IMG/VR virus record: IMGVR_UViG_3300034101_000614
Coordinates: 1-25,193 of that record
Reading direction: 5' to 3' (one strand)
DNA length: 25,193 bases
Source: a virus
A model generated the notes under the pieces. It worked only from the letters and a program-made list of their open reading frames with translations, searched no databases and was not told the origin of the DNA. Within the stretch, counting starts at the first letter, position 1. The number at the start of each line of letters is the position of its first letter. Both the position numbers and the translations under genes were made by a program. Of this stretch, positions 6,132-20,865 are shown in pieces.

Positions 6132-6144
6132 TGCGGTTCACTCC

Positions 6145-6180
6145 TTAGCGGCCCTTGCCGCCCTTCTTGCACGGCTTCAT
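6145..6180 (-). CDS. Possible 11-codon coupled ORF (Lys/Gly-rich peptide)
   Basis: An ATG at 6180 overlaps the stop of the upstream gene (ATGA) and opens an 11-codon frame, MKPCKKGGKGR, ending in TAA at 6145-6147. The stop immediately precedes the AAGGAG that serves the adaptor start at 6131. The ORF therefore bridges two genes in an otherwise gapless operon and could keep ribosomes loaded across the junction, or make a small basic peptide. There is no clear SD of its own, so initiation would depend on coupling. It is too short to judge by composition; chance is a real alternative. Confidence 0.35.
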   Translation of the reverse strand: MKPCKKGGKGR

Positions 6181-6812
6181 GCTGCGGCATCCTTCCTCGG
6201 GCGCCCGCGGCGCGGGGCGGATTCATCGTCCGACGACAGCAGCGCCGTCAGCGTCTCTACCTGTTCGGTCAGGTGGGCGATCTGATTGCGCATCGTCTCG
6301 TTTTCAGCGGCCAGAGCGGCAACCGGCTCCATGCCCTTCGCCTGTTCCAGATACGCCCGCGCCTGATCGCGGAGCGGGCGACCGCCCATGAACAGCGCGC
6401 CATCCTGGAGGCCGGCGAGCGATTCAATGGTGTGAATGCCCATCTCGCGAAGGGACGCCTGCCAGGACACATCCAGCGACTTCAGCTCAGACAGCGGAGT
6501 GCCGGTCATCACGTCGGCATTGCCCGCTTCCCAGGCGCCCAACTGCGTCCGGTAGCGGTCGCGCAGTTCATGGTTCACCTTGACTTCCGCCGGCACATCG
6601 TCGCCCTGCCACAGATGCCGTTCAATCACCAGAACAGCCACCTGATTTTTCATCCCCGGCGACGTGATATAGGCTTTCAGGTATTTGTCATGGATCGGGC
6701 GCCCGACGCGGGTTGACTGGAAATTGTTCTTTTCCGTCTCCCATTTGAATTGCACCAGAGAGAATTCCTTTCCCTCCTGAACCTTCATCATCGGCGAAAC
6801 CAAGTTGCTCAT
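6177..6812 (-). CDS. Phage head-completion-region protein with coiled coil and AT-hook-like tail (211 aa)
   Basis: The N-terminal half (residues 1-90) looks like a small alpha/beta domain (MSNLVSPMMKVQEGKEFSLV, then QFKWETEKNNFQSTRVGRPI). Residues about 115-155 have a helix-hairpin-helix-like pattern (REMGIHTIESLAGLQDGALF, then MGGRPLRDQARAYLEQA). Residues about 167-193 form a Leu-zipper-type coiled coil (AAENETMRNQIAHLTEQVET). The protein ends with RRGRPRKDAAA, which contains the RGRP core of an AT-hook. It resembles an uncharacterised family found between capsid and adaptor genes in podoviruses. A DNA-binding virion or assembly role is possible but inferred. AAGGA upstream of the ATG lies inside a small hairpin (6814-6829). 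It overlaps the 11-codon ORF by ATGA. Confidence 0.75.
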   Translation of the reverse strand: MSNLVSPMMKVQEGKEFSLVQFKWETEKNNFQSTRVGRPIHDKYLKAYITSPGMKNQVAVLVIERHLWQGDDVPAEVKVNHELRDRYRTQLGAWEAGNADVMTGTPLSELKSLDVSWQASLREMGIHTIESLAGLQDGALFMGGRPLRDQARAYLEQAKGMEPVAALAAENETMRNQIAHLTEQVETLTALLSSDDESAPRRGRPRKDAAA

Positions 6813-6831
6813 GGAAAGGGTTTCCTTTCGG

Positions 6832-7644
6832 CTAGGCCGCTTTGCTGCGCTGGCACTCGCCAGCCTTTCGCATTGTGCGGCAGATATGGGGAATCAGCCC
6901 GTCACCGTGGGCGATTATATCAATCTTTCCGGAGAAAGTCTTCCGCATCAAGTCCGCGAAGTCTTGCGCCTGCTGTGCGAGGTATGGAACGACCTTGAAC
7001 GCCTTGCCCGCGCAGACAACCTCGAATTCGGTCGCACGAATTCCGGTCAGGCTCTCGGCCGGGGCAGCGTAATGGCCACGGTCAATGGAAGAATCCATCC
7101 CGTAAATGTGCATTTTGCGGAAGCCCATCAGGTATCCGAGGTTGATGCAGCGAAGCCCGACGGTGCAGCCGCCCCCGATCATGCACCACGGCTTGTCCGG
7201 GAAAGTCTCCTGCATAAAGTCATGCTCTCCCCGCCCCATGTCGGCATGCCACAGGATCACGGGACAGCCCTCCAGGGCATCAAACACCGATGGGTGGACG
7301 ATGGACGCCACCAGATACGAAACCCGCCTATCGGGCTGAATATAGCGCTCCATGCCCTCGCCGCCGTCCAGCATGGCAACGAAATCCGGAACAATGCCCT
7401 TGGACAGAAGAAATTTGTCAGCGCCCTGCACCGTCATGATTACGCCGCCCCGCGCCTTGCGGTCTCGGATGGCGCGAAGCTGGCCTCTCAGGCTCGGCCC
7501 GTTGCCAACGATAATCATGGTCTTGTCGTGCTCGGGAAATTCACAGAACGGGTGCAGCCCCCTCGCCATGGACGCGGCCATCCGCTCTTTCGCCAAGTCC
7601 AGCGAATAGTGGCACGGCATGTTCATGTGAGGCATGAGTTGCAT
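6832..7644 (-). CDS. DUF115 / MptE-like domain protein in the head gene cluster (270 aa)
   Basis: Residues 47-52 are GNGPSL, the nucleotide-binding signature of the DUF115 family (MptE-like, 6-hydroxymethylpterin diphosphokinase fold, also present in motility-accessory Maf proteins). After it come VPDFVAMLDGG, GGCTVGLRCINLGYLMGFRK and HIYGMDSS segments, all in the usual order for this fold. In cells DUF115 proteins act in pterin synthesis or in sugar transfer to flagellin; the phage role is unknown. The ATG at 7644 has only a weak GGTGA upstream, and a later ATG (MPHMNM) is possible. A strong UUCG hairpin lies just upstream, between this gene and the decoration gene, so expression is probably below capsid level. 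It could also be a virion-modifying or nucleotide-sugar enzyme; that is speculation. Confidence 0.8.
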   Translation of the reverse strand: MQLMPHMNMPCHYSLDLAKERMAASMARGLHPFCEFPEHDKTMIIVGNGPSLRGQLRAIRDRKARGGVIMTVQGADKFLLSKGIVPDFVAMLDGGEGMERYIQPDRRVSYLVASIVHPSVFDALEGCPVILWHADMGRGEHDFMQETFPDKPWCMIGGGCTVGLRCINLGYLMGFRKMHIYGMDSSIDRGHYAAPAESLTGIRATEFEVVCAGKAFKVVPYLAQQAQDFADLMRKTFSGKIDIIAHGDGLIPHICRTMRKAGECQRSKAA

Positions 7645-7661
7645 TTGTCACCAAGTGAGAT

Positions 7662-7681
7662 GGGGAGGCCGAAGCCTCCCC
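7662..7681 (-). terminator. UUCG-tetraloop hairpin after the decoration gene (attenuator or processing site)
   Basis: On the leftward RNA this is a perfect 8-bp stem GGGGAGGC / GCCTCCCC closing a TTCG tetraloop, six bases after the stop of the decoration gene. No U-tract follows (ATCTCACTTGG), so it is not a classic rho-independent terminator. It may cause partial termination or protect the 3' end of the abundant capsid mRNA. Confidence 0.6.
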
Positions 7682-7687
7682 AGCCCA

Positions 7688-8155
7688 TTAGAAGGTAGTG
7701 GACTTCGGCCAAGTCGCGATGATTTCCGCGTTGGTCGCCGCCGTGATGGTCGAGGTCGAAACCACGCCATCGATCTTGGTCTGCGAGGTCGAAGCGTCGT
7801 CCAGAACACCAGCGGTGCCGGTGGTGTACAGGGCAACGTCGGCAGCGCAGTTGATCGCCAGACGAGTACGGATGTTGCTGCCCTTGGTGGCAACCCAGCC
7901 ATAATCGTTGTCGGCGAACGCCACCTGAGCGAAACCGATGATCCAACCATCATCGGCCATCGCCTTAGTCAGGGCTGCGGCCTGATAGTCCTCATCGATG
8001 CCAACCGCATCGTACTGAGTGATGGCGCCGTTGGCCTGGACGTAAGTCCATTCGGTGCCATCGGTGCCGTTGGTCTTGGTGCCGAGAGCGTGTTCGGCAG
8101 TGGTCACGGTGCTGGCGAGGCGAACACCAATGACGTTGGAGGTAGAAAAAGCCAT
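7688..8155 (-). CDS. Probable capsid decoration/cement protein (155 aa)
   Basis: The protein is small, Thr/Ala/Gly-rich, acidic and without Cys-pair or catalytic motifs. It starts MAFSTSNVIGVRLASTVTTA, then contains the segment TNGTDGTEWTYVQANGAITQ, which matches a family of small proteins encoded next to podovirus capsid genes. Predicted strands and hydrophobic spacing suggest a beta-barrel. It is encoded 22 nt downstream of the major capsid gene with a good AAGGAG, and is followed by a strong hairpin. This is a frequent arrangement for highly expressed head genes. Cement function is inferred from position and composition; a head fibre or minor capsid role is possible. Confidence 0.72.
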   Translation of the reverse strand: MAFSTSNVIGVRLASTVTTAEHALGTKTNGTDGTEWTYVQANGAITQYDAVGIDEDYQAAALTKAMADDGWIIGFAQVAFADNDYGWVATKGSNIRTRLAINCAADVALYTTGTAGVLDDASTSQTKIDGVVSTSTITAATNAEIIATWPKSTTF

Positions 8156-8177
8156 ATCCGTATCTCCTTGGTCTTGG

Positions 8178-9149
8178 TTACGCCTTCAGGACGCCCTGGA
8201 ACTTGCAGCCCGAGGCGGTCATGTTGCCGGCCCAGCCGATCAGCTTCACCATGGCATCCTGGTTGATGCTGTACCGATCATCACCAATCGGGGTCATGTT
8301 CCGGTCGCGATGCGGGCGGAGGAACAGATATTTGGTGTTGAGCATGTACATGTGGTTGCTGGGGCAGGCGCCACCGATGCCGCCATCCATCACCACGTCG
8401 GCATTCATGTACTTGAGGTTCATGAAGCCGGCCGAAGCCATCTTTTCGTTGGTGATGCGCTGGATGGCCTGGAGGCTCTCCAGATACAGGCGCCAGTAGT
8501 TGTTGTCCGCGACGATCAGGTCCGGAGCGTCACGGCCACGAACCAGCTGGACATAAAGCTGGTTCATGAACGACTGGATGTTGGTCGCGCTGGCCGCGCT
8601 GCCGCCGTCCGTGCTGGCATCAAAGCTGATGTTCTTCCAGAACGCCCACGAGGCGCGGTCAATGCCGCCCACGGTGCCGCTGGTCGGGGTATCAGCCACC
8701 AGAAGCTGGAGGCCGCCGATCTGCTTGCCGCCGTTGGCGGTGCCGTCCGAATACACGTCGGAGGCCAGGCCGTTAACCATCGAGTCTTCGGCGTTGGAAA
8801 TTCGGGCTTCCAACAGGTCGATAACCTGTTCGCTTCCGCTGTTCTGCAGCCCTTCCAGGCCCGAGATGGACACCGAAACAGCGACCTGTTTGATGTCGAA
8901 TTCGGCGCTGGTGAACACGTCCTGGGGCGACACGTCCAGCACGTCATAGCCGCTGTAACGGGTGTAGGTGCTGTTTTCGGCATAGGACAGTTCCTGCAGG
9001 ATGGTGCGACCACCGGAGAACGGCTTGACGTTGCCGCGTTCCTTCAGGCGCATCAGCAGGGCATTGTTTTCGGTCACGTTGTCGGCGAGGGCACCAGTGC
9101 GATTCCGCAGCGTGGTGGTGATGATTTCCGAAAGATTGGGCGAGGACAT
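8178..9149 (-). CDS. Major capsid protein (HK97-type fold, 323 aa)
   Basis: Length and order (scaffold, capsid, decoration) fit a phage major capsid protein. The N-terminus (MSSPNLSEIITTTLRNRTGA) is helical, as in the N-arm. FSGGRTILQELSYAENSTYT resembles the E-loop start. The long region SGSEQVIDLLEARISNAEDS matches the spine helix. APDLIVADNNYWRLYLESLQ, followed by AIQRITNEKMASAGF, is the typical A-domain pattern 'pDlIv....yw..y...l...qR'. The ending region LFLRPHRDRNMTPIGDDRYS is also characteristic. AAGGA precedes the ATG. There is no N-terminal protease or fused scaffold; the scaffold is the separate upstream gene. I am confident of the role. Confidence 0.9.
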   Translation of the reverse strand: MSSPNLSEIITTTLRNRTGALADNVTENNALLMRLKERGNVKPFSGGRTILQELSYAENSTYTRYSGYDVLDVSPQDVFTSAEFDIKQVAVSVSISGLEGLQNSGSEQVIDLLEARISNAEDSMVNGLASDVYSDGTANGGKQIGGLQLLVADTPTSGTVGGIDRASWAFWKNISFDASTDGGSAASATNIQSFMNQLYVQLVRGRDAPDLIVADNNYWRLYLESLQAIQRITNEKMASAGFMNLKYMNADVVMDGGIGGACPSNHMYMLNTKYLFLRPHRDRNMTPIGDDRYSINQDAMVKLIGWAGNMTASGCKFQGVLKA

Positions 9150-9167
9150 CGGCCCGGTTCCTTTCTA

Positions 9168-10259
9168 TCAGGCGCGACCGGCGGCAAGCTGCCGCTCAAG
9201 TTCAGCGCGAAGGGTGGGGGCGGGCGCCTGCTTGCTGCTGCCAGCATTTCCTGGAGCGCCCGTGACGGATACCGCCGCGCTTTTCGCCTTCGCCACCTGT
9301 GCAGCCTGTGCAGCCTTCCGTTCCGCCTCGGCCTTCGCCTGCGTTTCCGCCTGGACGATGGCTCGGGTTGTCGGGTTCATCCAAACGGCCCGGTCATAGG
9401 CTTCTTGCAGGGTGGTTGCCCTGCCAGAATCCAGGAGCGCGGCCATATCCTCGCGCACCGCGTCAAAGTGCGGCGCCGACGACTTGAACGACTCGATTTC
9501 GGAGACGAACTGCTGTTGCTTCTGCTGCTGCTCGGCCTGGCGCTGTTGGGCAAGGGTGGCCTTGACCTGTTCCAGTTCCTGCATCACGCGATGGACAGCA
9601 GGATCGGGGCCGGCTTGGGGTGTCTGCGAGATATGCGCGACATGACCTATGTCAATCCCGTACTGCCGCGCCACTTGTGCCAGCGCGGTAGCCTTCTGCT
9701 CGGGCGAGCCAGTGCGGAGAACCGCCGCCGTCTGCATGAGAGACGCAACGGCACGGTCGGGAGTGGTCCCTTCCTGGCGTAGCAACTGCTCATACGGGGC
9801 AATTTGCTTCCACATGACCTCGGCAAAGGCTGCCTTGGATTCATAGGCCTGCTTGAGTTTGGCAACGCCGGCCTGCTGTTCCGCGTCCCGCTTGGCGATG
9901 TATTCGCGCAAGGCCGGGTCGGCTTTGGTAAACAGGTCGCGTGCCGCCGCGTTCCAGCTTGTCGGAGCCTCAATGGCTGCCGCAGGCTGTTGCGCGGGTT
10001 CCGCCGGCTTGTCTTCCGGCGGGGAAACTTGGGGGGAGGCCGCAGCCTGCTCGACCTCTACGGTCGGGGAGGGGCTGCCCGCTTCGGGAGCGGCTGCGGT
10101 TTCGGTCTTCCTCGCGAAGCGGCCCGATTCATCACGGGCGCGGCTCTCGGATTCGGACGGGGTATCAGAGGCCGAAACCTCCGACACCGCCGCCTCGATA
10201 GTCTCACGCAAGGAGGGCGTGGATTCGGACTGGTCAACCGGGTTGCCGGTGTCGTCCAT
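9168..10259 (-). CDS. Capsid scaffolding protein (363 aa)
   Basis: The gene lies immediately upstream of the major capsid gene, 18 nt away. The product is highly charged, Ala/Gln/Glu-rich and nearly all helical or disordered. Residues 1-105 are Ser/Glu/Pro/Ala-rich and likely disordered. About 110-175 (SWNAAARDLFTKADPALREY) and 225-260 (VMQELEQVKATLAQQRQAEQ) are coiled-coil-like. The C-terminus is a basic helix (PTLRAELERQLAAGRA), as expected for capsid contact. 'W...p..a...f...p.......k.' near the start of the helical part is common in podovirus scaffolds. It is the first gene behind the promoter/UTR module at 10265-10335, with GGAG 7 nt before the ATG. Confidence 0.85.
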   Translation of the reverse strand: MDDTGNPVDQSESTPSLRETIEAAVSEVSASDTPSESESRARDESGRFARKTETAAAPEAGSPSPTVEVEQAAASPQVSPPEDKPAEPAQQPAAAIEAPTSWNAAARDLFTKADPALREYIAKRDAEQQAGVAKLKQAYESKAAFAEVMWKQIAPYEQLLRQEGTTPDRAVASLMQTAAVLRTGSPEQKATALAQVARQYGIDIGHVAHISQTPQAGPDPAVHRVMQELEQVKATLAQQRQAEQQQKQQQFVSEIESFKSSAPHFDAVREDMAALLDSGRATTLQEAYDRAVWMNPTTRAIVQAETQAKAEAERKAAQAAQVAKAKSAAVSVTGAPGNAGSSKQAPAPTLRAELERQLAAGRA

Positions 10260-10264
10260 GGGGA

Positions 10265-10335
10265 CACTCCATCATGGGATGCGGCGATTCACATCGCGGC
10301 TGCTGTTGTTATACTATAACATTTCGATTTTACAA
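10265..10335 (-). promoter_or_regulatory. Late promoter/5' UTR module A, upstream of the scaffold-capsid genes
   Basis: Leftward -35 TTGTAA (10330-10335, overlapping the stop of the upstream gene), 16-nt spacer, -10 TATAAC (10308-10313). The -10 lies in a perfect palindrome GTTATACTATAAC (10308-10320). Downstream is a 5-bp hairpin GCGAT/ATCGC with loop GTGA (10284-10297 on the transcript) and then an SD block ending in GATGGAGTG (10265-10273). The 21-bp core (10307-10327) is 18/21 identical to module B at 14001-14021, and the 19-nt SD block is 17/19 identical. Repetition makes a promoter/leader likely; sigma factor and regulator are unknown. Confidence 0.7.
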
Positions 10336-10671
10336 AGCACCCATCGCCCGCTTGATCGCTTCTACCCTATCGCCTCTGTTCAATGACTTCCGAGGCGCCG
10401 ACGGCGGTGCCTGATCGCCAATCTCGACGCAGCCATGGGCGCGGGTCCACTTGCGGAATTCGCTCTTGCTGTCGGTGCGGCGACCTTCCGCCGGGTGAAG
10501 CAGGCCGTTGACGTTGCCAGAGCCGCCGACGTAATCGGAAATCACCATCGGGCCGGCGGGCGCGGCGTGGCGCTCGTCAAATGAGCGGTTGAATTCCTCG
10601 ACCGTTTTCCGAAATTCGGATTCGGGGACGCGACGGTGATTGAGGAAGTCCCAGACAAGCCGTTCGCTCAC
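10330..10671 (-). CDS. Small conserved phage protein downstream of the portal (113 aa, GTG start)
   Basis: The protein belongs, by eye, to a family often encoded next to portal or scaffold genes. It has PMVISDYVGG, then SKSEFRKWTRAHGCVEIGDQ, where family members read roughly 'PmvisDi.py.s...g..i.sRs.hr..lr.hGcvEvGne'. Length is also normal. No function is established that I know of; an assembly or virion-associated role is assumed from position. The start is GTG at 10671 and overlaps the portal stop (GTGA), with GGAGG just upstream inside the portal gene. Its stop codon coincides with the -35 of promoter module A. Confidence 0.75.
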   Translation of the reverse strand: MSERLVWDFLNHRRVPESEFRKTVEEFNRSFDERHAAPAGPMVISDYVGGSGNVNGLLHPAEGRRTDSKSEFRKWTRAHGCVEIGDQAPPSAPRKSLNRGDRVEAIKRAMGAL

Positions 10672-12704
10672 TGCACACCTCCGATGGGCTGCCCCATCAT
10701 CATCTGCTGTTCCATCAACGCCTGCTGTTGCGCGAATTCCTGCTGTTTCATCACGGCTTCAATCCCGGTCTGTTGAAGCTGCAATTGCGCATCCTGCATG
10801 TCGGCCTGGGCACGCACCTTCTCGGCATCCGCCTTGACAACCTCGGTCGGGTCGGGCTGCGGCGGAGGCTTCGGCGCCATGGCCGATTGCTGTATTTGCT
10901 CGAACGTCTGCTCAATGGTGTTTTCCAGTTCCTCGCCCGCCTTGAAGCCGCGCACCGCGAACTTGAGCAAGTCGCCGGCCAGGGTGGACAACTGCGGCGC
11001 CTGGGCCAGGATCGGCGCCCAATTGCCGACGAACTGGCTGACCGCCGTGACGAATTCCACCCGGCTTTGCTTGTCTGCCTGCTCATCGGCGGCGATGGTC
11101 GAATCCGCCTCGATGTCAATCCGCCAGTTGCGCGTGGAATCGTTCTTGAGCAGATCAAGCGCGGCCATCGCCAATTCCCCGTTGAACTGCTCCACCGGCT
11201 GGCCCGTCATCGGGTCCATGGCCTGCATCTTCAGTTCCGGGATGCTCTCAGCATTGCTGATTTTCAGGATTGTCTCGGGCGAAAACAGTTCAGAGATGAT
11301 TTCAGCCTTGATGCGGATCACATCACGGGCGAACCGAGCCACTTCCTGTTGACGGTCGCGCACGCGCACGCTGCCCCACTGGGCTTTGATGCTCTGAGCC
11401 GTCGCAGTCTCGTTGGCATCGCTGGAGCCGCGCAGGATGTCCGACAGCCCGGTGACTTCGTAAAGGTCCTGTTTCGCCCGCTCGCGCGCCTCGTAAAGCT
11501 GAATGGCGGTCTGAGCAATGTCCTTGAGCGGAATCCAGGAAATGGCGTTCTGAATGCCGCCCTTGTCGGCGAACATCGCCCAATTCTCAACCGGGATCAG
11601 GTCGCCCTCGTCACCGTCCTGGAACAGCCGCTTGATTTCCGAAATCTCGCCGGCATACAGCCCGCGCACCTTAAGCGACTTCACAAGGTGGTTGATGCGC
11701 TGCGTCAGATTGTCGATTTCCTCGGCCTGATCCTGGTACTGGGCATAATCCGGCACAGGCGTCATGGTGCCGCTGGTCATGGTGGCGAACAGCGGGCGCG
11801 GGCACGGGAAGAAGTTCTGAAGCTTCAGAGGGTCTTCGCGAACGTCAAGCGGCTTCTCGGGGTATTGGGCATGAATCCAATAGACCTTCTCGCTGCTCTT
11901 GTCCCAAATCTCGTAAACCGTGGCCTTCTTGAACATCTCCGCTTGCGGGCTGTCCTCGGCCATGCCCTTGGGCTTGGCGTCCAGCGGGATATGGTCGGCA
12001 CAGTCGGGGAACCGCTCGCGCAACTCGTCGCGGGTCAGGTACGCCTTGCGCCAGACGGCATAGACTTCCTCCCATGTGCGGGCGCCGCTGTTATGGCCGA
12101 AGTCGGACCAATAGACGTAATCGTCAACGACTTCCTCATATTCAAGCTCTTCGACCATCTCGACGGCTTCGGGCTGCTCGGCCCCATCCGCGCCGTTGTC
12201 GTCCTGGTAGTCGCCGATCTGGTAGCCTTCCTCGGCAATGTCCTCGGTCGGTGCTGCTTCGACCATCCGCATGTGCGGGACATAGCGCTGCCAGGACACG
12301 CCGATGCCGCACAACAGCAGGTCGTCTCGGCATGACCGCATGACCGAATCGAAGCGCGACACGTCGGACGACAGGAAGTAATCAACAGACCGCTCAAGGA
12401 TGATCGAGGCCACGCGCCCAACCGGGTCTTGATCGCGGAACCGCCGTTTCACCGATGCCTTGGGCGTCTTGGCATAGACGGTCGGCTTGAGTGTCTCAAC
12501 GTTTGACCACAGCAGATTCAGCCGCCGCTGTTCGGCCTGATTGGTGTCCCGCTCGTCCCGATACCGGCGGATGATCTTCTTGCACCGGGTGTTGAACGTC
12601 TCCCGGTCCTTTTCGAACATCTGGATTTCGGTAATCCAGCGGCGGGCGACTGCGCTTTCGTCGTCGCCAAGATCGGCGGCAGTCTCAATCGGTCCTTCGG
12701 CCAT
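10668..12704 (-). CDS. Portal protein (P22/SU10-type, 678 aa)
   Basis: Large portal typical of podoviruses. Residues 20-110 form the N-terminal wing (RWITEIQMFEKDRETFNTRC, then RRLNLLWSNVETLKPTVYAK). Residues about 110-330 contain the crown-side alpha/beta region. Around 330-440 lies the clip/stem region (DQAEEIDNLTQRINHLVKSL, then ARERAKQDLYEVTGLSDILR). 'y.vtGlSDilRG.s...ETataq.i...wgs.R...rQ.evarf.rd' is a strong signature of this portal family. The C-terminal 100 residues are Gln/Ala-rich and helical, as in barrel extensions. It starts directly after the stop of the upstream gene (TAAATG), with GGGAG about 10 nt upstream. No frameshift is visible. Confidence is high. Confidence 0.92.
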   Translation of the reverse strand: MAEGPIETAADLGDDESAVARRWITEIQMFEKDRETFNTRCKKIIRRYRDERDTNQAEQRRLNLLWSNVETLKPTVYAKTPKASVKRRFRDQDPVGRVASIILERSVDYFLSSDVSRFDSVMRSCRDDLLLCGIGVSWQRYVPHMRMVEAAPTEDIAEEGYQIGDYQDDNGADGAEQPEAVEMVEELEYEEVVDDYVYWSDFGHNSGARTWEEVYAVWRKAYLTRDELRERFPDCADHIPLDAKPKGMAEDSPQAEMFKKATVYEIWDKSSEKVYWIHAQYPEKPLDVREDPLKLQNFFPCPRPLFATMTSGTMTPVPDYAQYQDQAEEIDNLTQRINHLVKSLKVRGLYAGEISEIKRLFQDGDEGDLIPVENWAMFADKGGIQNAISWIPLKDIAQTAIQLYEARERAKQDLYEVTGLSDILRGSSDANETATAQSIKAQWGSVRVRDRQQEVARFARDVIRIKAEIISELFSPETILKISNAESIPELKMQAMDPMTGQPVEQFNGELAMAALDLLKNDSTRNWRIDIEADSTIAADEQADKQSRVEFVTAVSQFVGNWAPILAQAPQLSTLAGDLLKFAVRGFKAGEELENTIEQTFEQIQQSAMAPKPPPQPDPTEVVKADAEKVRAQADMQDAQLQLQQTGIEAVMKQQEFAQQQALMEQQMMMGQPIGGVQ

Positions 12705-13949
12705 TTAGCGAATCTCCCGCCAGTTCATAATGGCCCGCGTGGCCGATGTGCCGCCAATGCCGGTAACAATGAGCGAAAGCGTCCCGAGCGAGCGGACTGC
12801 GCCGGCTGCGTTCAACGTGATCGGATAGCGAAGGTCAACCCGGCTCGATACATTCGTGCGGCTCTGGTTCGTCGCGGTGACGTACCCGGCGGCGACAACG
12901 ATTGCCGGGGCGCCGCTGATTGTGCCGGCGGTGTTGTATTCGAAGCCGCTATAGGTCGCATTCACGTCATTGAACGTCGTGGTGCCGCTGATCGCTTGGC
13001 CGATTACCAATTCCCACTTGACCGGGTTTGCCCCAGTCACCGTGACTTCGATGTTCTCAAGCACGAATTTCGAGCGGTTGGCGATGCTGTTAAACGTCGT
13101 CTTGGGCCGAACGGAAAGGATGTGCGTCTGAGCGCCGCTGGCGGCAGTGACGGTGCCCTCTTGTGAAAACTGGAACCCAGCAATGTCCTTTTGCCCGCCC
13201 TCGGAGATCACGGTGCAGCAGTTGAACCGCATGGTGGTCGAGACAGTGCCGGTGCAAGTCATTCCGACGCGAACGGGGAGGTTGGCTGTCTGAATGTACG
13301 GGCTGGTTTCGCTGTTGGCGTTGTCGTCCTCGTGGAACTGCACAAGACACCCGTCGATATCCAGATACGCCCGGACGCGCCCGACGTAAAGCGCCTGGAG
13401 GTCAACGCCGAGGATTTGCTGCTTGCTCCAGTCAACCGTGACCGCGCTGCGGCCCTCGCCGTTAAGCGGGTCGTCCCAATCGGCCTGATTGACATACTGA
13501 TTGCCGTGGCCGGTGCCCGACAGGATTGCCAGCCGCATCGTCGTGCCGTTGTACTGAAGTTCAACGCCGTTGGTGCCGTCCGAGTAGCCGGCGAACTTCA
13601 AGCAGTTGGCAACGCCGGCCACGAAGTTGAACGTGACGAACACCAGTTGCGAGCGGCCCGGCTGATAGCGGAAATGCTCGAACGTCTGCATAATCGCGCT
13701 GCCGCCGGTCGGCGTGCTGGCGAAGGTAAGCAGCGCATTTCGGTCGGTGGCGTCGTGGGCGATGGTCGCGCCAGACTGAGCCGTGATCTGTTCGAACAGC
13801 AGCGGCTGGAGATTGTAGGTTAGCTGTGAATCGAACACGTATTCCGGCGAGCTAACGCGATGGCGCCCGAAGGCGTCGGACGACGGATCGCCGTTGACGC
13901 CTAGGTAACGCTCTGCGGCCTCGGCCACGACCTCGTTGAAGCTGGACAA
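12705..13949 (-). CDS. Beta-rich probable virion protein between terminase and portal (414 aa, TTG start)
   Basis: No enzymatic motif is recognisable. The N-terminus (MSSFNEVVAEAAERYLGVNG) is helical, then RHRVSSPEYVFDSQLTYNLQ and PLLFEQITAQSGATIAHDAT introduce a long beta-rich, Thr/Gly/Asn-rich region. Similar proteins occur in many uncultured phage genomes, mostly as unknown structural proteins. A jelly-roll or lectin-like sandwich is plausible. The start is TTG at 13949; GGAG lies 9 nt upstream and no better start fits. It is the first gene behind promoter module B, so it is co-transcribed with portal. It could be a head fibre, a tail fibre or a decoration protein. The location next to portal rather than with tail genes is unusual for a receptor-binding protein. 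Confidence 0.65.
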   Translation of the reverse strand: MSSFNEVVAEAAERYLGVNGDPSSDAFGRHRVSSPEYVFDSQLTYNLQPLLFEQITAQSGATIAHDATDRNALLTFASTPTGGSAIMQTFEHFRYQPGRSQLVFVTFNFVAGVANCLKFAGYSDGTNGVELQYNGTTMRLAILSGTGHGNQYVNQADWDDPLNGEGRSAVTVDWSKQQILGVDLQALYVGRVRAYLDIDGCLVQFHEDDNANSETSPYIQTANLPVRVGMTCTGTVSTTMRFNCCTVISEGGQKDIAGFQFSQEGTVTAASGAQTHILSVRPKTTFNSIANRSKFVLENIEVTVTGANPVKWELVIGQAISGTTTFNDVNATYSGFEYNTAGTISGAPAIVVAAGYVTATNQSRTNVSSRVDLRYPITLNAAGAVRSLGTLSLIVTGIGGTSATRAIMNWREIR

Positions 13950-13956
13950 TCAGCCG

Positions 13957-14028
13957 CACTCCATCACGGGAAGCGCCGTCATCACGACGGGGCACGCGAA
14001 TGTTATAACATAACACTTCGAAGGTCAA
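13957..14028 (-). promoter_or_regulatory. Late promoter/5' UTR module B, upstream of the portal segment
   Basis: Leftward -35 TTGACC (14023-14028, overlapping the terminase stop), 15-nt spacer (16 if TTTGAC is used), -10 TATAAC (14002-14007). Downstream is a 5-bp hairpin CCGTC/GACGG with loop GTGAT (13976-13990), then a 19-nt block ending GATGGAGTG with the GGAG used by the TTG start at 13949. The layout matches module A element by element, and the hairpin stem has changed with pairing kept. Confidence 0.7.
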
Positions 14029-15416
14029 ATGCGCCCTGACTTTCCGCCGCTGTCCCATTTCAAATCACTGAACCGCACAGTTGACTTGCCGCCTACGGTC
14101 AGCACACGGCCCGGTTCCTTCGCCACCTCTGCCGCCGGCTCCTTGACTACCCAGGCGAGATAGCGCAGCACGTCGGCATTGTGGTTCGTCCAGTCGCGGC
14201 GGGGAGCGTCACGGAAGCATTTGCGCTCGGTGTCCCACTCGCGCTGAAACTGGCTGATCGCGTTGATGAACTTACAGCACCGCTCCGCGTCCACCCACAG
14301 CTTCGGGAACATACCGCGCACGGCCATGATGCCTTGCTGTTCCGTGTTTTTGTTCGGCAACACGGCAATCGTCTTCATCGGCACGCCCTCGGCCACCAGA
14401 AGCTCAAGGGCACTCTTGCCGCCGCTGATTAGGGTTCGCGCCTGGGCATCATGCGGCAGCCAGTGTCGGCCGTACTGATAGCCCTTCTCACGTAGGATTC
14501 CGGCATAATGGGCCAAATCCTGACCGTTGGCCTCGTAATGGTCGATCACCCTCACTTCGCCGCGCAGCACCTGATAGAACAGGATCACGGTATCGTCAGA
14601 CCATCCCAAATCCCACACTGTGTGGACGGGCAACAAAGGGTCATAATCCACGCGACCGATCCGGCAGGCATCACGCGCCCGGTTGACCTCCCCGCCATAG
14701 ATGGCGCCAAGAATGGCAGCCTCGAAGCTGCACAGGTACTCCTGCTCGAACAGAGCGATGCCGTGGTCCTCGCCATACGTCGTGATGTATTCGCGCCGTG
14801 CCGCGTCGATTTCACCCGGAGCAAGCGCCTCGGTGTCATGGATGTTCAGCCGCTGAACAAGCCAATCAGGATCACCCTGAAAACCCTCATACATTCGATG
14901 GCAATGGTTCTTCCCTCGCGGCGTGGTGATAAACGCTGCCCACCCGCCATTCTCTCTGAGGATCGGCGACAGGTAGCCCCAGGCTGATGGATTCGCCAGT
15001 GCCCATTCCGACGCGGTGACGCCGACCGGCGGCGACCCAACGAGGCTGTTGTAATTGTCGCTGCCGACAAGCTGCCAAATCGAGCCGTTGACGAATTCGA
15101 TCAGCATTTGACTGTCGTTCGTGCGTCTGCGCATGGCGGGCGGGAATGCCTCGTCAATGCGTCGGACGCCCGTGTGCGGGTTGACAGCGTTCCATACGCT
15201 CTTCCTGGCTTGCTCGTATTCTGGCAGCATGTGCCAATAGTTCCCAGGCCGTTGTATGCCCATGGCGGCGGCTAGGTGCAGGCAGACATCATCCTTTCCG
15301 GCGCGACGGTGCCAAACCAAAAGCGCCCGCTTCTTGCGGCCGCTCCATAGTTCGTACCACGCTTTGCGCTGGTAAGGGCGGGGCGCCCAATTATTCGGTA
15401 GCGTCAGGGTCGCCAA
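14025..15416 (-). CDS. terL: Terminase large subunit (463 aa, TTG start)
   Basis: ATPase and nuclease of the DNA packaging motor. The N-terminal ATPase has a Q-like PRPYQRKAW (12-20), a Walker A variant HRRAGKDD (36-43), a Walker B/glutamate region VGVTASEWAL (131-140, E137) and a coupling motif ITTPRGKNH (163-171). The C-terminal RNase H-type nuclease starts with VWDLGWSDDTVI (267-278, D269 and D274/D275 likely metal ligands); a downstream segment, NADVLRYLAWV, supplies a late Asp. Length is normal. The start codon is TTG at 15416 inside the end of terS (26-nt overlap), with only AAGG upstream, so coupling is probable. The type of packaging (pac, cos or direct repeats) cannot be read from the sequence. 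Confidence 0.92.
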   Translation of the reverse strand: MATLTLPNNWAPRPYQRKAWYELWSGRKKRALLVWHRRAGKDDVCLHLAAAMGIQRPGNYWHMLPEYEQARKSVWNAVNPHTGVRRIDEAFPPAMRRRTNDSQMLIEFVNGSIWQLVGSDNYNSLVGSPPVGVTASEWALANPSAWGYLSPILRENGGWAAFITTPRGKNHCHRMYEGFQGDPDWLVQRLNIHDTEALAPGEIDAARREYITTYGEDHGIALFEQEYLCSFEAAILGAIYGGEVNRARDACRIGRVDYDPLLPVHTVWDLGWSDDTVILFYQVLRGEVRVIDHYEANGQDLAHYAGILREKGYQYGRHWLPHDAQARTLISGGKSALELLVAEGVPMKTIAVLPNKNTEQQGIMAVRGMFPKLWVDAERCCKFINAISQFQREWDTERKCFRDAPRRDWTNHNADVLRYLAWVVKEPAAEVAKEPGRVLTVGGKSTVRFSDLKWDSGGKSGRI

Positions 15417-15747
15417 AGTTCACAACCTTGATGACCATATCGCCGCCGTCCTTCCCCGTATGCTCAAGCACCGAAGTTTCCCGCCACCGCGCCCGCGTCT
15501 TGAGCCAGAAGATAGCGGCGGTCACGCTTTCGCGCCCATCGCCTGTCGCCTTGCGAAACAGGTTCTCGGCCACTCTGGCGCATGCCTCGGCATTGGCCCT
15601 GTCCAGTTCCTCGCGGTAATGCTCGCGCAGCGTGGTGTCGTGAATGCCGATGACCTTGGCGATATCATCCTGCGGGATGCCGTATGCGCTCATGGCCTTG
15701 ACGGTCTTGCGCTGCTGCTCGGTCGGCTTATGCGGCGGCATTGGCAT
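15391..15747 (-). CDS. terS: Terminase small subunit (118 aa)
   Basis: DNA-recognition subunit of packaging. Residues about 10-42 form a helix-turn-helix (TVKAMSAYGIPQDDIAKVIG, then IHDTTLREHYREEL), the typical TerS N-terminal domain. Residues about 50-90 form the oligomerisation helices (ARVAENLFRKATGDGRESVT, AAIFWLKTRARWRE), also standard: 'A...l...A..g......a.ifwLK.r..wre'. The C-terminal tail is short and polar. It overlaps the methylase gene upstream by 20 nt and terL downstream by 26 nt. The role is clear from both motif and order. Confidence 0.88.
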   Translation of the reverse strand: MPMPPHKPTEQQRKTVKAMSAYGIPQDDIAKVIGIHDTTLREHYREELDRANAEACARVAENLFRKATGDGRESVTAAIFWLKTRARWRETSVLEHTGKDGGDMVIKVVNFGDPDATE

Positions 15748-16999
15748 TGGTCTTGTCCTCCGCTACCTGGGCGAACGTCGCGCCGGTTGCTTCCAGGGTT
15801 GCCTCCTTGCCGGTGAACTCCTGCCACCGCTTGACGGCAACATCCACATAGGCCGGGTTTAGCTCGATGGCGTAGATGTGCCGCCCGGTCATTTCACCGG
15901 CAATGATGGTCGTACCGGAACCGCTGAACGGCTCGTAGACGGCTTGGCCTGGGCTGCTGTTGTTCTCGATGGGGCGCTTCATGCACTCGACTGGCTTTTG
16001 GGTGCTGTGGCCGGTCTCGGACTTCTGTGGCTTGGGGATTTGCCAAAGGGTTGTCTGCTTTCGGTCGCCGCAGTAGTGGCCTGTCTTCTTATTCCTTACG
16101 GCATACCAGCACGGCTCGTGGTGCCAATGATAGTCACCGCGTGACATGACCATTTGAGACTTGGCCCAGATAATCTGTGACCGCAGCGTGAAGTCGCAGG
16201 CGGTCAAGGAGTCCGCAACGACGCCAGCGAACAACCCGGCATGCCAAACATAGGCCACGTCTCCGGGGAACAACGCCCAGGCTTCGCGCCAGTCGGCGCG
16301 GTCGTCGTTCAGAACCTTTCCGCTTGCCGCCCCTGGTCCGTTTATACCTGCAGTCTCCCGCCAAGCCGCATCATACTCGACCCCATAAGGCGGGTCCGTG
16401 ACCATCAAATGCGGCTTGACCTTGCCCAGAAGCTTCTCGACCGTATGCGCGTCGGTTGACGATCCGCAGATGATGCGGTGATTGCCGAGAATCCACACAT
16501 CGCCCTCGACGCTCACCGGGTCGGCGGGCGGCTCTGGCGCGTCGTCAGGATCGGTCAGCCCTTCCGTTTGCTCGGCCAGCAAGTCGGCAAGCTCATCGCC
16601 GCCAAAGCCGGTAAGGCCAACGTCAAATCCAAGCTCGCCCAAATCGGCAAGCTCGACCTTGAGGGCGTCCAAGTCCCACCCGGCATTCAGCGCCAGCTTG
16701 TTGTCCGCGATGACGTAGGCTTTCTTCTGTGCCTCGGTCCATCCCGTCGCCGTCATGGCAGGGACTTCCGTCAACCCGAGTTTACGCGCCGCCATGATGC
16801 GGCCATGACCTGCGATCAGTTGCCCCGTCTCATCCACCAGAACCGGGATAGTCCAGCCCCACTCGTTGATGGAAGCGGCGATCTGCGCCACCTGCTCGTC
16901 GCTATGGATGCGTGAATTGCGGGCATATGGGACGAGCCGAGAGACCGGCATCAGTTCCACTTTGGCGGCTGGCCAATGCTTTATAGGGGCGGTTTTCAT
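15728..16999 (-). CDS. ParB-like domain / beta-class DNA N6-adenine or N4-cytosine methylase fusion (423 aa)
   Basis: Residues about 15-100 are a ParB/Srx-like N-terminal domain (LVPYARNSRIHSDEQVAQIA, then GHGR at 64-67). Residues about 165-395 are an AdoMet-dependent methylase: catalytic motif IV DPPY at 202-205, HSTQKP at 331-336 and the AdoMet-binding FSGSGTT at 358-364. Motif IV before motif I makes it beta class, the class of CcrM. Such fusions are common in phages; they modify phage DNA, and the target site is not readable from sequence. No restriction endonuclease partner is nearby. It heads the operon with terS and terL. The predicted -10 places +1 at the ATG itself, so the mRNA is likely leaderless, and no SD is visible. 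Confidence 0.88.
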   Translation of the reverse strand: MKTAPIKHWPAAKVELMPVSRLVPYARNSRIHSDEQVAQIAASINEWGWTIPVLVDETGQLIAGHGRIMAARKLGLTEVPAMTATGWTEAQKKAYVIADNKLALNAGWDLDALKVELADLGELGFDVGLTGFGGDELADLLAEQTEGLTDPDDAPEPPADPVSVEGDVWILGNHRIICGSSTDAHTVEKLLGKVKPHLMVTDPPYGVEYDAAWRETAGINGPGAASGKVLNDDRADWREAWALFPGDVAYVWHAGLFAGVVADSLTACDFTLRSQIIWAKSQMVMSRGDYHWHHEPCWYAVRNKKTGHYCGDRKQTTLWQIPKPQKSETGHSTQKPVECMKRPIENNSSPGQAVYEPFSGSGTTIIAGEMTGRHIYAIELNPAYVDVAVKRWQEFTGKEATLEATGATFAQVAEDKTNANAAA

Positions 17000-17005
17000 A
17001 GAGCC

Positions 17006-17034
17006 AGTTTACTCCATGCCATACGATTGTGCAA
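17006..17034 (-). promoter_or_regulatory. Leftward promoter of the methylase-terminase operon (leaderless)
   Basis: -35 TTGCAC (17029-17034), 17-nt spacer, -10 TAAACT (17006-17011). Six bases separate the -10 from the ATG at 16999, so the expected start site is the A of the initiation codon. Confidence 0.6.
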
Positions 17035-17055
17035 CTCGACCGAATCGGATATAAT
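17027..17055 (+). promoter_or_regulatory. Rightward promoter of the Cro-like regulator
   Basis: -35 TTGTGC (17027-17032), 17-nt spacer, perfect -10 TATAAT (17050-17055). It overlaps the -35 of the leftward promoter, so the two divergent promoters probably compete for polymerase. Confidence 0.7.
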
Positions 17056-17058
17056 CCG
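17046..17058. promoter_or_regulatory. Palindromic candidate operator over the rightward -10
   Basis: CGGAT-ATA-ATCCG is a perfect 5-bp inverted repeat with a 3-nt centre, covering the -10 of the regulator's own promoter. It fits autorepression by the HTH protein encoded 27 nt downstream; binding is inferred. Confidence 0.45.
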
Positions 17059-17084
17059 CCAAGGATAACCCAGGAGTGTCCGAG

Positions 17085-17273
17085 ATGCAATTGGTTGATT
17101 GGCGACGGATTAAGAACAAGACCCAGGCCGACGTTGCGAAGGCACTGGGGGTGATCGTTGTGACGGTCAGTCGCTGGGAGCGGTTCGAGCGGACGCCGAC
17201 CTCCAAACTCCAGATCGAGATATTCAAGCTGACCAATGGCCGCGTCACGCCGAACGATTGGATGCGGATATGA
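17085..17273 (+). CDS. Cro/XRE-type HTH regulator (62 aa)
   Basis: Short Cro-like DNA-binding protein. The HTH is TQADVAKALGVIVVTVSRWE (residues about 13-32), with the scaffold of an XRE fold and a C-terminal VTPNDWMRI. The usual 'r..Ltq.elA..lGvs..tvsrwE.G...P' pattern is visible. I chose ATG 17085 rather than GTG 17076, because AGGAG (17072-17076) lies 8 nt before the ATG and overlaps the GTG. It is the only rightward gene in the left 20 kb and faces the methylase-terminase operon across overlapping promoters. It therefore probably controls that switch. No CI-type repressor with a peptidase domain is present in the window. Confidence 0.82.
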   Translation: MQLVDWRRIKNKTQADVAKALGVIVVTVSRWERFERTPTSKLQIEIFKLTNGRVTPNDWMRI

Positions 17274-17274
17274 T

Positions 17275-17294
17275 GGTGGGGAGTTACCCCCACC
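17275..17294. terminator. Hairpin between convergent genes, probable bidirectional terminator
   Basis: GGTGGGG and CCCCACC (7 bp, 6-nt loop) lie 2 nt after the regulator stop and just before the stop of the leftward gene at 17300. The rightward side continues CTATTTCA, so the U-tract is weak. Confidence 0.5.
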
Positions 17295-17299
17295 CTATT

Positions 17300-17593
17300 T
17301 CACAATGGGAGGTGGAGATTGTTTGCGATTAAAATTTCCTCCAGCCTTGCGTAAAGCTTTGGCCTATTGTTCATCATGGTGATGATGTCCTTCGACTCGG
17401 CCAAACGTTCTCCATCCCACGCGGTCCAGTAATTTGCCTTGTGTTCGATCACGCCATCGAACGCGACTTTAACAGCGAGCCACCTTCCTTTTTTGGGCCC
17501 GATGGATATCACCCACTTGTCTGTCTGAAACATCGCCTCCCATCCATCTCCATCGAGGATGGCACCGGCGTATTTTTTCGGCTTTAGTCTCAT
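17300..17593 (-). CDS. Small orphan protein (97 aa)
   Basis: I do not recognise a family. The protein starts MRLKPKKYAGAILDGDGWEA and is an alpha/beta-looking, Trp-rich, net basic, soluble protein with no Cys, signal peptide or membrane helix. Segments KWVISIGPKKGRWLAVKVAF and HKANYWTAWDGERLAE suggest beta strands, followed by a C-terminal helix (RPKLYARLEEILIANN). AGGGGG precedes the ATG by about 5 nt, and a promoter-like sequence lies further upstream. It is transcribed leftward after the primase and the repeat array, and converges on the Cro-like gene. It may belong to early control or host takeover; that is guesswork. Confidence 0.6.
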   Translation of the reverse strand: MRLKPKKYAGAILDGDGWEAMFQTDKWVISIGPKKGRWLAVKVAFDGVIEHKANYWTAWDGERLAESKDIITMMNNRPKLYARLEEILIANNLHLPL

Positions 17594-17609
17594 CGTTACC
17601 CCCTAAGCC

Positions 17610-17638
17610 TCTATAAAGAGTATAGACAAGTTTCACAA
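17610..17638 (-). promoter_or_regulatory. Possible leftward promoter of the 97-aa gene
   Basis: -35 TTGTGA (17633-17638), 17-nt spacer, -10 TATAGA (17610-17615). Another -10, TATACT (17619-17624), is also present and would leave a better UTR; the two -10 boxes sit in an inverted repeat CTATA-aagag-TATAG. Confidence 0.4.
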
Positions 17639-17656
17639 AAAAAGGCAGCCAGGGCA

Positions 17657-17814
17657 TTACCCTAAAACCGCCGATCTAGCCTTTGACCCTAGGTGTGTAC
17701 ACCACCAAGTCACTACGTTGGTGGGTATAGCACACGTCCAGGGTCAAAGTCAAGCTTTTGATCCTTTGACCCTAAATTACCCTAGGGTCAAAAAAAGGGT
17801 CATTTAGGGTCAAG
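17657..17814. repeat. Array of GGGTCA/TGACCC half-sites, candidate origin or operator
   Basis: TGACCC occurs at 17684-17689 and 17768-17773; GGGTCA at 17741-17746, 17785-17790, 17797-17802 and 17807-17812. Most copies extend to TAGGGTCAAA or its complement, and TTACCCTAAA at 17657-17666 is a partial copy. The palindrome ACCCTAGGGT sits at 17779-17788. The last three copies are in direct orientation at 10-12 bp steps, about one helical turn. The last one overlaps the primase stop codon. The array occupies the only non-coding stretch near the primase, over 200 bp long. Confidence 0.65.
17702..17724. other. Hairpin inside the repeat region
   Basis: CCACCAA (17702-17708) and TTGGTGG (17718-17724) form a perfect 7-bp inverted repeat with a 9-nt loop. 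It lies between the first two GGGTCA-type sites and is AT-poor; it may be a structural part of an origin or a terminator for the primase transcript. Confidence 0.4.
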
Positions 17815-19840
17815 ATGTTTCACGGCGCTGGAGTAGAGCAAAGGATGCAACCTTATCCATCAAAATCCACCCTTTGTTGTCGTATGTTTCGATCACTCCG
17901 GCGGTGATAAGTGCGCCTATTAGTTTGTCTTGATAGGATGGGTTTATCATGTTTCGGATGGTGCGTTCGGCGTGCCCGTCCATCTCCAATTTCGCCTTCA
18001 GGGCATCGCGGGAGACATAAACCAGACCATCTCGATCTTCCGCGCCGCATGCCCACCACGCCGTCTCAAACGCCTTTTGGTGCTTCTTTATGGGGCTATC
18101 TTTCTCGGCTTTGGCGGCCCTCTCAACGTCATCCGGCACGGCGACACAGGTGGTAGCGACCCTCCCAAACTTGGTGGTTCCTATCTCGATGATGTCGAGT
18201 TTAAAGAGGATATCGTCTCCCTTGCCGGGCAGTTCTCGCTGCTTGGTGATGGTTGCCCGGCGCCCATCCTGATCGGAAACCACCTCAATCTCGGTATCAA
18301 TGTGGGCGCGGATTCCGCTCCATCCCCGCGACCCGGCTGCGGCGTTTTTGCCATTGTGGTGAATAATCACCATCGCGGCTTGCGTTTCCTTGGCAACGGC
18401 GTCGAAGCGTGCCATGACCGGCCCCATGTCGCTTCCGCGATTTTCGTCTGCACCGGCTGACATGCGGGCCAGGGTATCGCCGACGATCATGCGGACGGGT
18501 GCGCCGGTCTGATCCTCAACCACGCGGACCAGTTCGATAACATCTTGGGCATCGCCGTCGCCCTCATAGAAGTTGATCGGAACCTGGACGATAACGAGGT
18601 ATTCCATGCCCCATCCGGTATGGCGCTTGATGGCCTGGACGCGGGTTCGGACGCTGCTGGGGCTTTCGGTGGCAAGGTAGATCACGAGGCCCTTGTCTGT
18701 CTGTCTCCCGAACCATTCGGCGCCCTCGGCCACGGCTGCGGCTAGGGAGAGCGCCAGGAAGGTCTTTCCGCTGTTGCTGTCGCCATAGATAACCGTCTGG
18801 CTGCCAATGACGATCAGGCCCTCGACCAGTTCATTGGGAACGGCGAAGTCGGTGCCAAGCTGATTGCCGAACACCGCATCCAGCTTGGTGATGATGTCCG
18901 ACCCGGTGACCGGCGGATGAAGCAGCCCCTTTAAATCCTTGCCAGCTTTTCGGAAGTCGTTGGCATCGCCCTCGATGGGCGGGATGACGATCCTGGCGCC
19001 GTATTTGGCGGCGGCTTGTTCGGCGTACCGCTGCCCGACACCGGAGGCGTCATTGTCGGCGACGATGATAATGGGCTTGGTCTTGCCGTGGATTTCGCGC
19101 ATGGCCGCCAGGGCCGGGACGAGGTTACTGGCCGAATAGGCGACAATGCAGAGGTTGCCGGTTTCTTCATGGATGGTCGCCGCAGTGGCAAAGCCCTCGG
19201 CGATATAGATCGTGCTGTCGTCGGTGCCGATGCTCCAGAACTTTCCGCCGGTCGCCCCGCCGGGGTGATATTTCTTGTCGCCGTCGTCGCTGATGTATTG
19301 AAGGCTGCTGATGGTGCCGTCGGGGCTGTAGAGCGGGAGCATGAGGCGCCCGTCTCCGGTCACCCTGGCGCAGTGAACGCCGATCCCCTTGCGGGCGAGG
19401 TAGGGATGGTCGGGCGAAGCCGCCATGCCGTCCGACCATATCTTGTCAACCACGGTTGACGCGGTTTCGCGTGTTCGCTCAAGCTCTGCATCACGGGTGG
19501 CCTTGGCCTCGGCCATGCGGCGGGTGAATGCCATCTCCTCCGCTGGGGTAAAGCTCCGCTCCATGGTGGCACGCCACGTCTTCTCAACGCCAGCCCGCCA
19601 ATCGCCGAATCGCCCAGCGGGGATACCGTCTCCGAAAGCGACATACCATGCCGATAGGTCTTTTCGCTTGCCGGTGTTGAAGCGGTGCAGTTTGCCGTCG
19701 AGATGGATGCTTGCCGGCGGGTCCAGACCTTCGCGGCGCATGGCGTCCTGAAGCTGGACCTCGGGCGGCTCGACGAACGGCTTATCGGTGGGCGGGACGT
19801 AGACAAACTCCCCGCCGAATATGCTGGTGATATCAGCCAT
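17810..19840 (-). CDS. Phage primase-helicase: TOPRIM domain fused to RepA-like AAA ATPase (676 aa)
   Basis: Residues about 40-160 form a DUF3987/primase-like N-terminal region. The TOPRIM domain has YIAEGFATAATI (catalytic Glu, about 212-223) and VADNDASGVG (about 260-269). The RecA-like domain carries Walker A GDSNSGKT (about 353-360) and a Walker B-type RMIVGDTLARM (about 450-460), followed by a HHNGKN sensor. These are the features of RepA/Gp4-like primase-helicases that open and prime replication forks. The start is ATG 19840, with GAGGA 6 nt upstream; the frame extends 11 codons further but without an SD. It overlaps the small membrane protein gene by 8 nt. The C-terminal 100 residues look like a winged-helix domain. 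The GGGTCA array follows directly. Confidence 0.85.
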   Translation of the reverse strand: MADITSIFGGEFVYVPPTDKPFVEPPEVQLQDAMRREGLDPPASIHLDGKLHRFNTGKRKDLSAWYVAFGDGIPAGRFGDWRAGVEKTWRATMERSFTPAEEMAFTRRMAEAKATRDAELERTRETASTVVDKIWSDGMAASPDHPYLARKGIGVHCARVTGDGRLMLPLYSPDGTISSLQYISDDGDKKYHPGGATGGKFWSIGTDDSTIYIAEGFATAATIHEETGNLCIVAYSASNLVPALAAMREIHGKTKPIIIVADNDASGVGQRYAEQAAAKYGARIVIPPIEGDANDFRKAGKDLKGLLHPPVTGSDIITKLDAVFGNQLGTDFAVPNELVEGLIVIGSQTVIYGDSNSGKTFLALSLAAAVAEGAEWFGRQTDKGLVIYLATESPSSVRTRVQAIKRHTGWGMEYLVIVQVPINFYEGDGDAQDVIELVRVVEDQTGAPVRMIVGDTLARMSAGADENRGSDMGPVMARFDAVAKETQAAMVIIHHNGKNAAAGSRGWSGIRAHIDTEIEVVSDQDGRRATITKQRELPGKGDDILFKLDIIEIGTTKFGRVATTCVAVPDDVERAAKAEKDSPIKKHQKAFETAWWACGAEDRDGLVYVSRDALKAKLEMDGHAERTIRNMINPSYQDKLIGALITAGVIETYDNKGWILMDKVASFALLQRRETS

Positions 19841-20045
19841 GGTTGATCCTCGTGAACAAGCGCCGGACAGCATAGCCTCTCACGATGCTGACGACGGTGT
19901 AAATGGCGGTGACGGCGATGTTGTCGCCGATGGTCAAGTTCCAGCCGAAAGCGGGGAATACCACGGCGCCAACCGCCAGAGAGACGCCAAAGCCAATGAA
20001 TGTACTGGTAATGGCCTCGATGGCCGACATGCGTTTGGATTGCAT
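19833..20045 (-). CDS. Small two-helix membrane protein (DUF7220-like, 70 aa)
   Basis: The protein starts MQSKRMSAIEAITSTFIGFG and has two hydrophobic helices (about residues 9-32 and 42-60), then a basic end RRLFTRINHG. The arrangement 'qsr.mS..Ea..n...G......l.fP.fg....l..n..i..iftvvSi.R.Y.lRRlF' is common in phages (the DUF7220 family, as I recall it). Location would be the inner membrane; no activity is known to me. I chose ATG 20045 (GGGAGG 8 nt upstream) over TTG 20060, which overlaps that SD. It overlaps the primase start by 8 nt, so the two are coupled. The SD is paired in a strong hairpin. Confidence 0.78.
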   Translation of the reverse strand: MQSKRMSAIEAITSTFIGFGVSLAVGAVVFPAFGWNLTIGDNIAVTAIYTVVSIVRGYAVRRLFTRINHG

Positions 20046-20051
20046 TTCATA

Positions 20052-20080
20052 CCCTCCCAAAGCCCGATAGAATGGGAGGG
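20052..20080 (-). promoter_or_regulatory. Hairpin sequestering the SD of the membrane protein gene
   Basis: On the leftward RNA, CCCTCCCA (20073-20080) pairs perfectly with TGGGAGGG (20052-20059) across a 13-nt loop. The 3' arm contains the GGGAGG Shine-Dalgarno 7 nt before ATG 20045. Folding would block initiation of the membrane protein and, through the overlap, reduce primase synthesis. Confidence 0.55.
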
Positions 20081-20090
20081 CGAAAATAAT

Positions 20091-20145: not shown

Positions 20146-20191
20146 CATAGCCCGACCGGAATTGGCCGAATGGGCTTTCGGAGTGCCATAG

Positions 20192-20863: not shown

Positions 20864-20865
20864 TC

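Follow-up and report, generated by a model that had tools for sequence, protein, structure and literature searches.

Two late-gene starts in a viral contig carry copies of a widespread, covarying RNA hairpin element found before phage virion genes

The leader of T7 gene 10 is composed of the promoter phi10, a 5' stem-loop and a strong ribosome site. In polycistronic mRNAs, intercistronic hairpins set differential expression, as in the Rhodobacter puf operon. The lambda-type boxB RNA hairpin has a 5-bp stem and a GNRA-like loop. Autoregulation has been reported for the scaffold of phage P22. The locus described here shares features with several of these systems. High-output virion genes are preceded here by one block that combines a putative promoter with a 5' hairpin and a ribosome site, as they are in the T7 gene 10 leader. 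Unlike that leader, the loop and stem have other sequences, the promoter hexamers are sigma70-like, and most copies of the wider family lie inside operons, between genes, without an evident promoter. Like the puf-type hairpins, the element is located between genes of one operon and before a gene needed in excess. It differs from them in that the family keeps its loop (GUGA or GAGA) and a UCC...GAYGGAG block across unrelated genes.

The window is the whole stretch of DNA that was analysed, 25,193 nucleotides of IMG/VR virus record IMGVR_UViG_3300034101_000614. Its late genes lie on the minus strand in the order ParB/methyltransferase, small and large terminase, a 414-aa virion protein (phrog_1645), portal, a 113-aa gene, putative scaffold, major capsid protein and further virion genes. 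The first of these (15728-16999, minus strand) opens the cluster and fuses a ParB-like domain to an N6/N4 DNA methyltransferase. Site 1 is the gap between the 113-aa gene and the scaffold gene, and site 2 is the gap between the large terminase gene and the 414-aa gene. The putative scaffold gene (363 aa; 9168-10259, minus strand) is directly upstream of the major capsid gene (phrog_9953) and is homologous to the gene in the same position in relatives; it has no PHROG or Pfam match of its own. The 414-aa virion structural protein gene (12705-13949, minus strand) has a PHROG match with E = 8.9e-63 and a TTG start codon. The first-pass annotation had placed the two sites before the scaffold gene and the portal segment. 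The first placement holds; at site 2 the 414-aa gene comes first and the portal gene follows it.

A blastn search of the 6-kb region against the phage collection returns no match. A sibling contig, IMGVR_3300042366_000227, is 100% identical to the window across 13 kb around both sites (window 5560-18704) and 99.2% identical over a second compared stretch (10512-24946). The differences between the two therefore lie to the right of approximately 18704 (window 18705-24946), in replication genes.

Both sites contain a hairpin followed by UCC and GATGGAG. Copy 1 precedes the scaffold gene (10267-10297, minus strand) and copy 2 precedes the 414-aa gene (13959-13990, minus strand). In the sequence and in the RNA fold, the hairpin of copy 1 is GCGAT-GTGA-ATCGC (10284-10297, minus strand) and that of copy 2 is CCGTC-GTGAT-GACGG (13976-13990, minus strand). 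This agrees with the earlier description of two hairpins with a GTGA-type loop whose stems differ while pairing is kept; the second loop is a pentaloop. The 19-nt ribosome-site block, CGC[A/T]TCCC[A/G]TGATGGAGTG, which includes TCCCRTGATGGAGTG, has the 17 identities between sites that had been claimed for it. Its Shine-Dalgarno sequence, GGAG, is 7 nt ahead of the scaffold start codon in copy 1 (10267-10270, minus strand) and 9 nt ahead of the TTG start of the 414-aa gene in copy 2 (13959-13962, minus strand). The distance from stem to GGAG is 13 nt in both copies and in one related contig (L097). Ribosome sites at the other late genes of the window are of the AAGGA type, compared to A[U/C]GGAG at the genes that follow the element. 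Single-sequence folding of the leaders is weakly better than that of shuffled sequences.

Among relatives reached through the capsid protein, the first sign of the element is found upstream of the scaffold gene, as GTGCT-GTGAT-AGCGC (L097) and TCGCC-GTGA-GGCGA (L099/L100), each followed by UCC and ATGGAG. A search pattern made up of a stem, a GTGA loop, T[CT]CC and GA[TC]GGAG has 21 matches in the fetched loci, compared to 0-1 in shuffles and 0-3 for twelve other loop sequences. All loci newly found with the stem and GTGA pattern are at gene starts. A covariance model built from eight loci (R1), in which site 1 of the window is a seed and site 2 is not, recovers both window sites (35.6 bits for copy 1; 26.8 bits for copy 2). 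The element is kept ahead of scaffold or portal genes in the L006/L291 record and in L097, L099, L100, L127, L157, L166, L205 and L064. The L006/L291 record, in which TerL and portal are 58-60% identical to those of the window, is the closest distinct relative and contains three copies, before the portal, scaffold and tail-fibre-like genes. Several genomes contain two to three copies. In L064, only the terminase is common with the window among the genes tested, yet the element precedes its scaffold-like gene.

The leaders of some relatives are more elaborate. L127 has two tandem hairpins before the scaffold gene (4755-4881) and a further copy, with the Shine-Dalgarno sequence GATGGAA, before the major capsid gene (5961-5994). 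A small extra hairpin is inserted between UCC and GAYGGAG in L099 (1176-1227), L100 (5882-5932), L127 (4827-4881) and L157 (4872-4923). In several loci of the window's capsid clade (L138-L147), a different conserved leader, of the kind TTGCCGCGAAATTTCCCGCTGCCTAGCATCCTCAGCATGCAAATCAGCGGGGAT, is present upstream of the scaffold gene.

A scan of viral contigs that makes no use of pairing (CTCCRTCTAAGGGA-N7-14-TCWC, the reverse complement of the loop and downstream block) finds at least 120 stretches. In the 101 distinct contexts among the scan matches listed, 426 of 505 flank positions pair (shuffled mean 333, maximum 349). A second covariance model (R2), built from 25 sequences that again include site 1 as a seed and exclude site 2, finds at least 119 copies in at least 98 sources at E <= 0.01. 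It recovers copy 1 with 38.8 bits (E = 1.1e-9) and copy 2 with 30.8 bits (E = 4.1e-7), and both have the features of the family, namely a covarying 5-bp stem with a GNRA-type loop, then UCC and GA[U/C]GGAG at the start-codon spacings given above. In 109 distinct aligned copies, 96% of cells pair and two-sided changes occur in all five stem pairs. The covariation score of these copies is 0.544, compared to 0.185 +/- 0.014 when shuffled and 0.067 or less when slid; their alignment was fitted to model R2, and the pairing count in the 101 contexts is the cleaner covariation test. When R2 is run on 100 loci picked by protein homology, there is one further convincing copy (L064, itself a seed), so the element has a patchy distribution and the model a low background.

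The two sides of the stem change together, and the hairpin reads in the same direction as the gene behind it and keeps a nearly constant distance to the ribosome site; it is therefore an RNA element. The suggestion that it is under selection is strongly supported by its conservation and covariation in many phages. The hairpin and the UCC...GAYGGAG block are a real, widespread RNA element and form a large family outside Rfam. No Rfam 15 covariance model matches at the gathering threshold, and a permissive E-value search of six short loci is also empty. Two leader consensus queries, run by short-sequence blastn on the phage collection, give weak, chance-like matches only, and no description of the motif was found in open-licence papers.

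The element is found at the starts of genes for virion proteins. In 111 of the 119 copies listed, a start codon with a frame of at least 50 aa is located 4-14 nt past GGAG, mostly at 6-9 nt and most commonly at 7 nt; some of the loci in this tally were found with a pattern that itself includes the ribosome site, which makes the association with gene starts partly dependent on the search. The proteins downstream of the R2 copies listed form 33 clusters. Twenty downstream representatives were compared to PHROGs; 17 belong to head or tail families and three to families of unknown function, one of which also has a weak major-head match. The families comprise major head proteins (617, 212, 283, 1005, 29 and 334), scaffolds (3927 and 673), major tail proteins (1407, 158 and 13196) and a tail fibre. 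The window-type capsid (phrog_9953) is preceded by the element in L127, which brings the total to at least seven major-head families.

This range of genes bears on whether the hairpin is a translational operator, at which a phage protein (scaffold or coat) would bind and repress its own translation, on the model of the P22 scaffold. The element does precede scaffold genes in the window and in most podovirus relatives, with the hairpin near the ribosome site. The proteins downstream are unrelated (several major-head families, tail tubes and fibres) and occur in phages without common capsid genes, which makes a single conserved phage ligand improbable, and we consider an operator of this kind unlikely. 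Use by non-homologous genes argues against one phage protein as the reader and in favour of a cis effect or a possible reader on the host side.

The putative promoter half of the two sites has a much narrower distribution than the hairpin. The 21-bp core (10307-10327 versus 14001-14021) has 18 of 21 identities, as first described, and its consensus, with up to three mismatches allowed, never occurs by chance in 100 dinucleotide-shuffled sequences. It contains an exact palindrome, TGTTAT-N3-ATAACA, that is present at both sites and has no third occurrence in the record. The palindrome of site 1, TGTTATAGTATAACA (10307-10321, no strand assigned), holds a putative -10 hexamer, TATAAC (10313-10308), and that of site 2, TGTTATGTTATAACA (14001-14015, no strand assigned), holds the same hexamer (14007-14002). 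At both sites the putative -35 hexamer overlaps a stop codon, in keeping with the first description. TTGTAA (10330-10335, minus strand) lies over the TAA of the upstream 113-aa gene, and TTGACC (14023-14028, minus strand) lies over the TGA of the large terminase gene. Read by eye, the hexamers are TTGTAA-16-TATAAC at site 1 and TTGACC-15-TATAAC at site 2. A simple promoter scan scores TTGACC-17-TAACAT at site 2 as 9/12 (14028-14000) and has no match on the minus strand at site 1. Judged by these hexamers, a promoter at each window site is plausible.

Among related loci, the AT-rich palindrome and -10 core is present only in IMGVR_3300042366_000227. In viral contigs, the palindrome combined with the ribosome-site pattern matches this sibling contig; six further contigs match too, with the short pattern as their only similarity. 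The closest relatives keep the hairpin and have different upstream sequence, which is often AT-rich and in some cases contains -10-like hexamers (TATAAC in L290; TAGTAT and TACTTT in L097). A hexamer with at least four of six matches to TATAAT is present 10-20 nt ahead of the stem in 7 of 15 podovirus-group copies, compared to 1.5 expected at random positions, a comparison confounded by the AT-richness of intergenic DNA.

The first-pass annotation had viewed both sites as a phage-specific late regulatory cassette, with the palindrome as a possible binding site for an activator or repressor of the phage. A late promoter or operator of this type, with the palindrome as the key part and the hairpin as incidental, would account for a palindrome that is exact at both sites, absent elsewhere in the record and overlapping a -10-like hexamer, and for the excess of such hexamers before the stem if AT-richness is set aside. 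In the relatives examined, the near-identical contig excepted, the palindrome is missing while the hairpin and ribosome block persist. Conservation of the palindrome at the late promoters of related phages, as a late operator requires, is not found. The hairpin and ribosome-site half is common to phages with non-homologous capsids and is not phage-specific. The expected conservation in relatives thus holds for the hairpin and ribosome block and fails for the palindrome and -10 core, and a palindrome-centred cassette is quite improbable.

Upstream of the GNRA hairpin, mostly 10-15 nt to its 5' side, a second hairpin with a 9-nt loop, CUU[G/A]GGCAA, and a covarying 4-bp stem is present in 39 distinct contexts (e.g., L371:1018-1038). 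In its stem, 152 of 156 cells pair (shuffled mean 93, maximum 111). This loop is not found in the window. It occurs in a subset of copies only and therefore does not define the R2 family. A universal second hairpin was rejected; the folding excess over the 45 nt upstream of the hairpin is small (mean z -0.2), and only the CUU[G/A]GGCAA subset is supported. Two further structures near the ribosome site were considered and set aside. One is a UCC/GGA stem masking the ribosome site, in which pairing is possible but the base beside UCC is unconstrained and there is no covariation support. The other is a CsrA-type ANGGA site; GAAGGAG copies exist.

The second hairpin and the intergenic, within-operon position of most copies are consistent with a site at which a polycistronic late mRNA is processed or stabilised. 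The GNRA hairpin would then guard the downstream segment from 5' decay and produce differential expression while hardly acting on translation directly. Its close link to the ribosome site, with the same 13-nt spacing in both window copies and in L097, suggests a role in initiation instead, and a site acting through decay alone is rather doubtful. Antitermination of the nut/boxB type, through a phage or host antiterminator, has in its favour that the 5-bp stem and GNRA-like tetra- or pentaloop resemble lambda boxB. Whereas boxB sits upstream of a transcription unit, the hairpin here is linked to the ribosome sites and start codons of individual genes, several copies lie within operons, and the sequence from UCC to the ribosome site is not constant. 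This function is very improbable.

An alphaproteobacterial host link is likely. Copies in bacterial genomes (L482, L483, L484 and L495) are from the class of a Caulobacteraceae genome, and one divergent copy is in a Nitrosovibrio prophage (L205). For the most frequent capsid, the closest isolate relatives are Rhizobium, Sinorhizobium and Labrenzia phages, in which the element is missing. No convincing copy is found in isolated Rhizobium, Roseobacter, Labrenzia, Bradyrhizobium, Stenotrophomonas and Pseudomonas phages (best E = 0.01). Isolated phages of Rhizobium and Roseobacter have related capsid proteins but no copy of the element, which is therefore dispensable in those lineages. A different hairpin cluster lies upstream of the major capsid gene in L478, L479 and L480: in Rhizobium phages RHph_TM3_3_14B and RHph_Y3_1 it is CAGCC-GCAA-GGCTG and then CCGGC...GCCGG, and phage 16-3 has a related CCGGC...GCCGG stretch.

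We favour the interpretation, to which we give a probability of roughly 60%, that each window site holds a copy of an mRNA leader that acts in cis and that many phages place before high-output virion genes. The proposed leader begins with a hairpin of 5 bp whose loop is of the GNRA type (GUGA or GAGA, in many copies one base longer). A spacer of 3-7 nt and UCC follow, and then GA[U/C]GGAG, which would serve as the Shine-Dalgarno site, with the start codon approximately 7 nt further on. It probably sets the expression strength of head, scaffold, tail and fibre genes. Its likeliest function, as far as sequence comparison can indicate, is to raise or tune how well genes needed in large amounts are translated, or how stable their mRNA is. 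The hairpin would act in the mRNA, at translation initiation or transcript stability, alone or via a host factor; a cis effect or a host factor is proposed on the ground that the element is common to phages whose capsids are unrelated. In the window phage, a sigma70-like promoter just upstream may start transcripts near the hairpin, which would join promoter, 5' hairpin and ribosome site in one block. A more specific proposal, tentative and on balance unlikely, is that a host factor (a ribosome-associated or RNA-binding protein) is recruited by this undescribed element, which is shared among phages whose capsids are non-homologous and whose hosts are mostly alphaproteobacterial, and serves as a common control point for structural genes late in infection.

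If the leader does act in this way, a single small RNA part that sets the output of capsid, scaffold, tail and fibre genes has been reached by convergence, or passed on by exchange, among unrelated phages. It would then provide a sequence-level handle on the balance of phage structural proteins, a compact expression part, and a marker for virion genes in unannotated viral contigs.
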